DNA from: Candidatus Limnocylindria bacterium
GTDB taxonomy: Bacteria; Chloroflexota; Limnocylindria; P2-11E
DNA: 58,875 bases
Direction: 5' to 3'
NCBI GenBank assembly: GCA_036523395.1
Contig: DATDEH010000010.1
Coordinates: 1 to 58,875, forward strand
The position numbers and the translations under genes are program-made. The notes under the pieces are model-generated. The model saw only the letters and a list, made by a program, of their open reading frames with translations, was not told where the DNA came from and did not search any database. Of this stretch, positions 20,205-23,616 are shown in pieces (position 1 is the stretch's first letter; every line of letters begins with the position of its first letter).

Positions 20205-21089
20205 CTAGATCGCGAGGCGCAGCTGCGACGGCGCGACGGGCTCGGGCTTTCGGAACGGACGCTCTTCGAATTGGTATCGCAAGCGCACGCGACGCGCGCG
20301 CTCCTCGACCACATCGGTGTAGCTGCGCGCGGGGTTGACCCGCTCCGCGAACTGCGCCTCGGTCGCCGGGACGAGGGCGGGGGAGTGCTCCGAGAGGAAC
20401 GCGAAGTAGTGTGGCTTCACCGCCGGATCGAGCTTCAGCGGACGCGTCGAGAAGAATGTCGCACCGCTCCTCGCCGCCGCGGCTGCCACCGCGTCGAGCG
20501 ACTCCTCAGAATCGCTGAGGCCTGGCAGGATCGGCGCGGCGAGGACACCCGCGTCGATCCCGGCGGAGACCAGGCGTCGTACCGCCTCGAGTCGCGCTTT
20601 CGGCGGAGACGCGTGCGGTTCCGAGATCCGCGCGATCTCCTCAGAAACCGTGCCGACGCTGACGCAGACCTTGACGTCGAGTCGTGACAGCAGATCGACA
20701 TCGCGGACCACCATCGAGCCCTTCGTGATCACGACAAGCGGCAGGGGCGACGCGACGAGCGCTTCGAGCGTTCGCCGAGTGATGCGGTAGCGGCCCTCGC
20801 ACTGCTGATAGGGATCTGTGGCGGTCCCGAGTGCGACGGTCTCGCGCTTGCGCAACCGACGCAGCTCTTGCGTGAGCAGCTCGGAGAAGTTGATCTTCAC
20901 GTCGATCTCGCGGTCGAAGCCGGCGCCGGTGTCGCGGCCGCGACGCGCGTGGTAGTCGCGCGCGTAGCAATAGACGCAGGCCCGCTCACACCCCATGTAA
21001 GGGTTGAGGCTCCACGCGAAAGGCATTCCCTGAACGCGCGTCAGCGCGCTCTTCACCGTGACCTCTCGATACAGGACGCCGCTCCCCAT
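20205..21089 (-). CDS. Radical SAM protein, SPL/Rv2578c-like
   Basis: 294 residues. The iron-sulfur/SAM motif is CERACVYCYAR (Cx3Cx2C), followed by a domain with TATDPYQQCEGRYRITRRTLEAL, TKGSMVVRDVDLL, and VSVGTVSEEIARISEP. This is the radical SAM group annotated as Rv2578c-like, related to spore photoproduct lyase. SPL repairs a UV thymine lesion; here that function is inferred, not shown. A LexA-type box lies directly upstream and overlaps the -10 by one base (TATCAT, minus strand, 21105-21100). Divergent from the LigD modules. Confidence 0.85.
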   Translation of the reverse strand: MGSGVLYREVTVKSALTRVQGMPFAWSLNPYMGCERACVYCYARDYHARRGRDTGAGFDREIDVKINFSELLTQELRRLRKRETVALGTATDPYQQCEGRYRITRRTLEALVASPLPLVVITKGSMVVRDVDLLSRLDVKVCVSVGTVSEEIARISEPHASPPKARLEAVRRLVSAGIDAGVLAAPILPGLSDSEESLDAVAAAAARSGATFFSTRPLKLDPAVKPHYFAFLSEHSPALVPATEAQFAERVNPARSYTDVVEERARRVRLRYQFEERPFRKPEPVAPSQLRLAI

Positions 21090-21104
21090 GGTCGTGGCGA
21101 TGAT

Positions 21105-21118
21105 AGAACATGCGTTCT
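21105..21118. promoter_or_regulatory. LexA-type (SOS) operator AGAAC-ATGC-GTTCT
   Basis: The core GAACATGCGTTC (21106-21117) matches the Gram-positive/actinobacterial LexA pattern GAAC-N4-GTTC, with symmetric flanking A and T. It lies between the divergent radical SAM gene (start 21089) and LigD phosphoesterase (start 21138), touching the -10 of the first and about 20 bases before the second start. Both flanking units are DNA-repair genes, which supports the reading. No lexA gene is in the window. Confidence 0.6.
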
Positions 21119-21137
21119 AACAACAGAAAGGCTCAGA

Positions 21138-21821
21138 TTGGGGACCACCCGCGCCTCAAGGAGACGAACGATCGCGCCCACGAAGAAGCCCGCGGCACGC
21201 GCCGGACTGGCCGAGTACAAGCGCAAGCGTGACTTCTCGCGCACGCCCGAGCCCGCGCCGCGCCCTGCGCGCTCGGCGACCCGTCGCAGCTTCGTCATCC
21301 AGAAGCATCGCGCGACGGCCCTCCACTACGACTTCAGGCTCGAGATCGGCGACGCGATGCCGTCGTGGGCAGTGCCAAAGGGTCCTTCGCTCGATCCAAG
21401 CCAGAAACGACTCGCGATGCAGGTCGAGGATCACCCGCTCGAGTACGCGGGCTTCGAAGGCGTCATCCCCGCGGGCGAGTACGGCGGCGGCACGGTGATG
21501 ATCTGGGACGAGGGGACGTACGAGATGCTCGACGACGTCGATCCCGCCGTCGCGCTCAAGAAGGGCGAACTGCGATTCACGCTGAACGGCCGCAAGCTCA
21601 AGGGACGCTGGACCCTCGTTCGCACCGGGCCGCGGAAGTGGCTGCTGATCAAAGGGCGCGACGCGGAGGCGGACACGACCGACGTCACGGTCGCACAGCC
21701 GCGCTCGGTACGAACGAATCGCCTCCTTGCCGAGATCGCTCGCGATGAGGGAGGCGACGTCGATAAGGCGGCGACCGGCGACCCCGCCGTGAGTAAGACG
21801 TCCGGATCCGCGAAGCGTTGA
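21138..21821 (+). CDS. ligD: LigD-type 3'-phosphoesterase (DNA repair)
   Basis: 227 residues as a free-standing PE domain. After a 35-residue basic tail comes RRSFVIQKHRATALHYDFRLEIGDAMPSW, with the His and Asp/Arg active-site set of LigD phosphoesterases, then SQKRLAMQVEDHPLEYAGFEGVIPAGEYG and RWTLVR. PE removes 3'-phosphates or ribonucleotides at breaks during non-homologous end joining. The TTG start is chosen because AGAAAGG lies 7 bases upstream. First gene of a PE-ligase-polymerase operon, with a LexA-type box in its promoter region. Confidence 0.85.
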   Translation: MGTTRASRRRTIAPTKKPAARAGLAEYKRKRDFSRTPEPAPRPARSATRRSFVIQKHRATALHYDFRLEIGDAMPSWAVPKGPSLDPSQKRLAMQVEDHPLEYAGFEGVIPAGEYGGGTVMIWDEGTYEMLDDVDPAVALKKGELRFTLNGRKLKGRWTLVRTGPRKWLLIKGRDAEADTTDVTVAQPRSVRTNRLLAEIARDEGGDVDKAATGDPAVSKTSGSAKR

Positions 21822-22744
21822 GGGCACCGATCGCGCCGATGCTCGCCTCGCTCTCGAAGGAGGTGGTGAGCGGCCCGGACTGGGTCTACGAGGAGAAGTA
21901 CGACGGGATCCGGGCCGTCGCGTACCGCGATGGCGATCGCGTGCGTCTTCTGTCGCGCACCGGTCAGGACCTGACCGCGGGTTTCCCGGCGATCGTCGAC
22001 GCCATTCGCGATCTGCCGGATCCTGACACTGTGCTCGACGGCGAGCTCGTCGTCTTCGATCCGAGCGGCGTCTCGCGGTTCCAGCTGCTTCAGCGTCGCG
22101 GCATCGAGCGTGGCACGCGGACGGTCTACGCGGTCTTCGACTGCCTCCGTTCAGAAGGACACGATCTCCTCCGCCGGCCGCTTGATGAGCGACGCGCGCG
22201 ACTCCTCAAGCTGATCCCGCGACGGTCGGGCGCGCTCATGCCGTCGCGGCGGCTGCCGCGTGACGGCGAGCGAGCGCTGGCGACCGCGCGCGAGAAAGGG
22301 TGGGAGGGCGTGATCGCGAAGATCGCGTCGTCGCCCTACGAGCCGGGGGTGCGCTCGCGGGCGTGGCTCAAGATCAAGGTGCGCGGTGAATCGGAGTTCG
22401 TCATCGGCGGATACACGCCGCCGCAGGGATCGCGCACGGAGTTCGGCGCGCTGCTCGTCGGCCTCTATGACGGCGGCAGGCTGCGCTACACCGGGAAGGT
22501 GGGGACCGGGTACACGCAGGACACGCTTCGCGACCTCGGGGCGAAGCTCATGGATCTGCGGACAGACGCGCCAGCGTTCGAGCCGACACCGCGCGTCTCC
22601 GGTGCGATCTGGGTGAAGCCGCGACTCGTCGCGCAGCTCGCATACGCGGAGTGGACGGCCGACGGAAGGCTGCGGCAGCCGGCGTTCCTGGGACTCCGCA
22701 CCGACAAGAAACCAGAGGAGTGCACGTGGGCACGACGCGAGTGA
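21818..22744 (+). CDS. ligD: ATP-dependent DNA ligase, LigD-type
   Basis: 308 residues, the size of a LigD ligase core (nucleotidyltransferase plus OB domain). The catalytic Lys is in EEKYDGIRAV; motif III is VLDGELVVFD, motif IV GWEGVIAKI and motif V WLKIKVR. The OB domain (about residues 205-300) ends in RLRQPAFLGLRTDK, typical of LigD. TTG start overlaps the previous stop (TTGA), so it is translationally coupled. It seals nicks at repaired ends; Ku, its usual partner, is not in the window. Confidence 0.88.
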   Translation: MRAPIAPMLASLSKEVVSGPDWVYEEKYDGIRAVAYRDGDRVRLLSRTGQDLTAGFPAIVDAIRDLPDPDTVLDGELVVFDPSGVSRFQLLQRRGIERGTRTVYAVFDCLRSEGHDLLRRPLDERRARLLKLIPRRSGALMPSRRLPRDGERALATAREKGWEGVIAKIASSPYEPGVRSRAWLKIKVRGESEFVIGGYTPPQGSRTEFGALLVGLYDGGRLRYTGKVGTGYTQDTLRDLGAKLMDLRTDAPAFEPTPRVSGAIWVKPRLVAQLAYAEWTADGRLRQPAFLGLRTDKKPEECTWARRE

Positions 22745-23616
22745 ACGACGGCGAGACGATCGGCGGGGTGGTGATCTCGAACGTCAACAAGGTGTGGTGG
22801 CCCGATGAGGGCATCACCAAGGGCGACATCGCGCGTTTCTACCACGCGATCTCGCCCCTGCTGCTTCCATGGATGCAGGGTCGCCCCCTCACGGCGGAAC
22901 GCTGCCCCGACGGGATGCTCGGTGGCTGCTTTTACCGGAAGAACTTCCCCGAGGGCAACATCCCTGTCGGTGCGCCGCGGCTCCGGCTGCGTGCCGAGAG
23001 CACCGGCAAGGACGTGAACTACGTTGTCGGAGGCAACCTCGAGGCGCTCCTCGGCCTCGTCAGGGTGGGATGTATCGCCATGCACATCATGAACTCGCGC
23101 GTCGGCTCGATGCGTGATGCGGATTGGCTCGCGTTCGACCTCGATCCCAGCAGTGGCGAGTTCGCCGACACCATCCGCCCGGGCAGGGCATTGAAGGCGA
23201 TCCTCGATGAGCATGGCCTGGTGTCGTTCCCGAAGACGTCGGGCAGCCGAGGGCTGCACGTGTTCGTACCGCTCCGCGCGGGGCATTCACAGGAGAACGT
23301 GACGGCCTTCGCGGTCCGCGTAGGCGAAGAGCTCGCGCGCCGCGAGCCTGAGCTCGTCACGATGGAGTTCAGCAAGAAGGCGCGGGGCACGCGCGTGTAC
23401 GCCGATCCCTTCCGCAACGCGTACCTGCAGACCATCGTCACGCCGTATTCGGTGCGGCGTCGCCCGGGCGCCACGGTCTCGATGCCACTCGCGTGGGACG
23501 AAGTCACGGCGCGGCTCGATCCGCGCCGCTTCGCCATCCGAACGCTCGAGAAGCACATGGCGCGCGACGATCCCTGGGCCGACTTCAAGAAGAAGGCGCA
23601 GCGGCTGCCCAGCTAG
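22726..23616 (+). CDS. ligD: LigD-type primase-polymerase (AEP) domain protein
   Basis: 296 residues from GTG 22726, which has AGGAG 5 bases upstream. It overlaps the ligase 3' end by 19 bases. It begins in VVISNVNKVWWPDEGITKGD, the standard LigD POL start. The two metal-binding Asp residues are in DWLAFDLDPS, with the conserved KTSGSRGLHVFVPL following. LigD POL fills gaps with a preference for ribonucleotides. Separate POL, PE and LIG genes are known outside mycobacteria; the order PE-LIG-POL here is different from the fused POL-PE-LIG order. Confidence 0.88.
   Translation: MGTTRVNDGETIGGVVISNVNKVWWPDEGITKGDIARFYHAISPLLLPWMQGRPLTAERCPDGMLGGCFYRKNFPEGNIPVGAPRLRLRAESTGKDVNYVVGGNLEALLGLVRVGCIAMHIMNSRVGSMRDADWLAFDLDPSSGEFADTIRPGRALKAILDEHGLVSFPKTSGSRGLHVFVPLRAGHSQENVTAFAVRVGEELARREPELVTMEFSKKARGTRVYADPFRNAYLQTIVTPYSVRRRPGATVSMPLAWDEVTARLDPRRFAIRTLEKHMARDDPWADFKKKAQRLPS

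Follow-up and report, generated by a model that had tools for sequence, protein, structure and literature searches.

SOS-controlled splB genes have been predicted in alpha- and beta-Proteobacteria (PMC3323433) and in Bacteroidetes (PMC8565304), and there are also published descriptions of SOS gene neighborhoods which include Ku/ligase or SplB-like genes (PMC3765255). The motif GAAC-N4-GTTC is known as the LexA motif of Gram-positive bacteria (PMC3323433). In mitomycin-treated Mycobacterium tuberculosis, Ku and LigD are down-regulated and no regulatory element is found at their promoters (PMC8151990), in keeping with the remark in a preliminary description of the present locus that genes of non-homologous end joining (NHEJ) are not usually under SOS control. 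For the soil class of Chloroflexota considered here, a literature search found no published LexA regulon.

In the window (the whole stretch of DNA that was analyzed, 58,875 nucleotides from a Candidatus Limnocylindria bacterium), a LexA-type palindrome lies between a radical SAM (rSAM) gene, read on the minus strand from 21089, and a divergent, split LigD operon on the plus strand. From comparison with related genomes, we consider it highly likely that this palindrome serves the rSAM gene as its LexA operator, and that any SOS control of the adjoining LigD genes would be incidental. The arrangement resembles the LexA-regulated splB genes (COG1533) of alpha- and beta-Proteobacteria and Bacteroidetes, in that an SplB-like radical SAM gene carries a LexA box in its promoter throughout a lineage; it differs in the phylum and in the GAAC-N4-GTTC type of the box, and the likeness is drawn at the SplB-like level, subfamily aside. 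The features are as follows.

20205–21089, minus strand: radical SAM gene, Rv2578c/PA0069-like, spore photoproduct lyase (SPL)-like fold, 294 aa (NCBIfam NF038135, 7e-74; PDB fold matches)
21100–21105, minus strand: -10 of the rSAM promoter, TATCAT (TA-N3-T invariant in 29 aligned rSAM promoters)
21104–21119, no strand assigned: predicted LexA operator, TAGAAC-ATGC-GTTCTA (exact match; best matrix score in the window; box kept in relatives)
21123–21128, minus strand: weak candidate -35, TTCTGT, 17 bp from the -10 (by position only)
21138–21821, plus strand: LigD 3'-phosphoesterase (PE) gene, start TTG 21138 or ATC 21171 (TIGR02777 1e-63, PF13298 4e-44, on 21171–21821)
21818–22744, plus strand: LigD ATP-dependent ligase gene (TIGR02779 9e-90, PF01068 2e-35)
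22726–23616, plus strand: LigD primase-polymerase gene (TIGR02778 7e-66, PF21686 3e-76)

The palindrome and the LexA box of the lineage

The sequence AGAACATGCGTTCT occurs at exactly 21105–21118 and, as first described, fits GAAC-N4-GTTC by exact pattern match; its perfect arms reach one base further on each side (TAGAAC/GTTCTA, 21104–21119). Core and spacing are identical to those of the LexA box of Bacillus subtilis and M. tuberculosis (PMC3323433), from which the rSAM boxes differ in favoring A/T flanks (AGAAC..GTTCTA), the outer TA being part of the -10. The palindrome AGAAC-N4-GTTCT exceeds chance: about 0.7 occurrences per 3.0 Mb are expected at the G+C content of the genome, corresponding to about 2e-5 per 81-bp gap, and the genome contains four, with none for the reversed control. 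Besides the site in the window, these lie ahead of an imuA-like gene (contig C116), a ligase-like gene (C13) and a CxxC-motif gene (C109).

The genome encodes one clear LexA (LexA_DNA_bind plus peptidase S24), and the promoter of its gene contains GAACAGATGTTC. Among the family genomes with a lexA match, this one included, 26 of 26 lexA promoters carry GAAC-N4-GTTC, the box sitting just behind TTGAC and ahead of GGT. A lexA box of different sequence, which the preliminary description had named as an argument against a LexA operator, is thus not what the genome holds; the two boxes are identical in pattern, and the original identification of the palindrome is supported. Further boxes in this genome precede uvrB, dnaB and the imuA-like gene. 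The proposed comparison with lexA, dinB and recA gave a divided answer: lexA carries the box; dinB, which shares the strand of lexA and lies about 2.3 kb downstream, lacks an exact one; and recA, a usual SOS gene, failed as a positive control, with no box near it.

When the window was scanned with a matrix built from family promoters of the lexA and ligase-like genes only, with the rSAM boxes left out, site 21104–21119 ranked first with 21.7 bits, the runner-up reaching 7.2 bits. An equally high-scoring site turned up in 1 of 200 resampled windows, a result which is overridden by the conservation of the box across relatives. Taken from these sequence comparisons, the palindrome is very probably a genuine DNA-damage (SOS) switch.

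The radical SAM promoter and its product

Orthologs of the rSAM gene were located in 15 family genomes, including this one, and in 39 of 177 genomes of the class. Of 30 ortholog loci that were read, across the class and down to about 42% protein identity, 29 carry the box upstream of rSAM, with diverged flanks. Named metagenome-assembled genomes show the same arrangement (L059 and L060, Chloroflexi; L062, labeled Bacillota; L064, Thermomicrobiales), L059 and L060 coinciding with the loci of genomes G014 and G012 and hence not being independent of them. In the one exception, G013, the box is followed by a gene for a serine recombinase, which overlaps rSAM. This gene is inserted between LexA box and rSAM (L142, 7321–8611), so that a mobile-type gene appears to have captured an SOS promoter.

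Aligned on the box, the 29 promoters are asymmetric. On the rSAM side, GTTC is followed by T-A-t-n-n-T, in which the outer T, the A and the last T are invariant; the side away from rSAM shows only a preference for A and no conserved promoter element. Since the invariant -10 is confined to the rSAM side, the conserved promoter reads towards rSAM. In the window, TATCAT (minus strand, 21105–21100) shares two bases with the end of the box, which bears out the earlier observation that box and rSAM -10 touch. Over the 29 rSAM promoters, the mean -35 match is highest, at 2.41 of 6, with a spacer of 17; the -35 is weak in this genome, where a consensus promoter scan found no promoter at this position. 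The box, which matches the organism's own LexA box, is therefore placed to block a conserved promoter, its identity and placement being established by sequence comparison. From established LexA biology we infer that LexA on the box would cover the -10 and the spacer of the rSAM promoter and keep RNA polymerase off, and that upon DNA damage, with RecA on single-stranded DNA, LexA would cleave itself and the rSAM enzyme would be made.

By sequence, the nearest families of the rSAM protein are Rv2578c and PA0069 (NCBIfam), both below the curated cut-offs; its NF038135 score is 248.7 bits, where the cut-off is 430, which by that rule makes it a relative of the Rv2578c family and not a member. Rv2578c may belong to the LexA-regulated genes of M. 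tuberculosis, a point given no weight here; a literature search for Rv2578c together with LexA found nothing. The six best PDB matches of the AlphaFold model (pLDDT 73, pTM 0.78) are all spore photoproduct lyase, including 4fhg and 4fhc (E 6e-8, TM 0.62, 18% identity), and a profile search of the protein also finds this enzyme (E 8e-4). The protein shares with it the fold and the CX3CX2C cluster motif (C34/C38/C41), but Ala90 aligns with the hydrogen donor Cys140 of SPL, in a weak alignment to C140A structures. The initial label of the protein as photoproduct-lyase-like can therefore be called fair for its modeled fold and does not extend to the catalytic cysteine, nor to the nearest sequence families.

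An association of SOS with splB is already known from other phyla, and the Chloroflexota case adds to it, since on the reading preferred here the SOS regulon in a soil class of this phylum includes an SplB-like radical SAM enzyme. With a further phylum added, a general role of this little-studied enzyme family in damage repair becomes more likely.

The adjoining LigD operon and alternative readings

As in bacterial NHEJ LigD, phosphoesterase, ligase and polymerase activities are found side by side, differing here in that the operon is split into three genes and lies away from Ku. The 48 bases first given between the two start codons hold only with TTG 21138 as the PE start; ATC 21171, which has a Shine-Dalgarno-like AAGGAG ahead of it at 21158–21163, makes 81 bp the alternative intergenic length. 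In many relatives (L141, L144–L151; compare 21138–21175 of the window), PE has no ATG, GTG or TTG near its conserved N-terminus and begins at ATC or ACC after an in-frame TGA; in several relatives it overlaps there with the end of a PHP-domain ORF read in a different frame. Translation may begin at a non-standard codon, or a frameshift may be involved.

The most durable alternative is that the operator is shared, with LexA at the box repressing both rSAM and the LigD operon and with end joining and photoproduct-type repair being co-induced, as the preliminary description had proposed in placing both under one damage signal. The box lies 19 bp (TTG 21138) or 52 bp (ATC 21171) upstream of PE, near enough to hinder a ligD promoter, and the split operon neighbors rSAM in 13 relatives possessing both, at varying distance and strand. 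Against this, none of the 16 relatives checked has a separate box for ligD, the best matrix score upstream of PE being 1.1 bits versus about 21 in this genome, and in G015 ligD is kept while rSAM and box are both gone. On the ligD side of the box the bases read TAACAA in place of a -10, and a consensus scan of this genome recognized no ligD promoter overlapping the box. Neither the full-length LigD beside Ku (contig C104) nor a second Ku (C46) carries a box. A shared operator is therefore unlikely, and the single damage signal finds no support as an evolved arrangement. Two broader versions were rejected: an ancestral operator shared with ligD, by the absence of a box upstream of PE in the 16 relatives, and SOS control of the main Ku/LigD locus, by the unboxed C104. 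The box tracks rSAM and not ligD among relatives and hence belongs to the rSAM gene.

In the two closest relatives, G012 and G014 (88% rSAM identity), a small membrane-protein-like gene on the rSAM strand, absent from this genome, stands between box and ligD. Together with the boxless ligD of G015 and of the other relatives, this spacer gene indicates that the adjacency of rSAM box and ligD is local to the present genome. LigD apparently came to lie beside the box in this genome only, after a small local gene loss, as read from one assembled contig. SOS control could reach ligD here through adjacency alone, and LexA at 21104–21119 might hinder a ligD promoter. It is a doubtful but conceivable reading of the sequence that the loss of about 0.4 kb placed the split operon beside a ready-made LexA operator and newly wired part of end joining to SOS; if true, this would be a natural promoter-capture event, visible against the two nearest relatives that keep the spacer gene. 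More generally, the reading of a single genome can suggest a regulatory link, here of NHEJ to SOS, which relatives do not support.

Considerably less probable is SOS run-through, in which rSAM and ligD would form one damage-induced transcript from the rSAM box in related genera. Several genomes of genus g2 (L147, L152) do have rSAM, two small genes, a PHP gene and PE-lig-pol on one strand, but gaps of about 85–290 bp separate the genes, opposite-strand genes intervene in G008, the orientation differs in G001, and rSAM and ligD are divergent in this genome. A single SOS operon spanning rSAM and ligD does not hold as a general rule, gene order and strand being variable. That the palindrome arose by chance and has no regulatory role is hardly credible: the core GAAC-N4-GTTC by itself shows only mild enrichment (39 in the genome versus 23 in the control), with a majority of sites inside long ORFs, so that the core alone would be no proof, yet the box is kept at the same promoter in nearly all orthologs despite diverged flanks and recurs in every family lexA promoter.

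Other genes with LexA boxes

Several further genes of this genome carry LexA boxes. An AGAAC-N4-GTTCT site at C109:29151 (L050, 2953–3880) immediately precedes an ORF that contains CxxC pairs and HNH-like repeats, has no Pfam or NCBIfam match and is a candidate SOS-induced nuclease. A strong box of 24.6 bits at C42:15502 (L031, 2003) lies 34 bp upstream of dnaB, which encodes the replicative helicase and is an unusual SOS target.

On contig C13 (L029/L110, approximately 223–884), the boxed gene encodes a protein of about 200 aa that resembles a ligase domain standing alone (PF01068, 8e-8). One or two LexA boxes precede it in all 25 family genomes read (orthologs L111–L134 and G154, the latter being L216), and the catalytic lysine of motif I is missing in 25 of 25 (EP-E/A/D-W-x-G versus EEKYDG). 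The protein looks like an SOS-controlled inactive ligase homolog, possibly a greater novelty than the rSAM operator. Upstream of it, on the opposite strand (L111, L113, L118), the same two boxes lie within a strong TTGACA/TA-rich promoter, which faces a short ORF in which a WRVPPRVYSP-like motif recurs; this ORF may encode a small protein induced by SOS.
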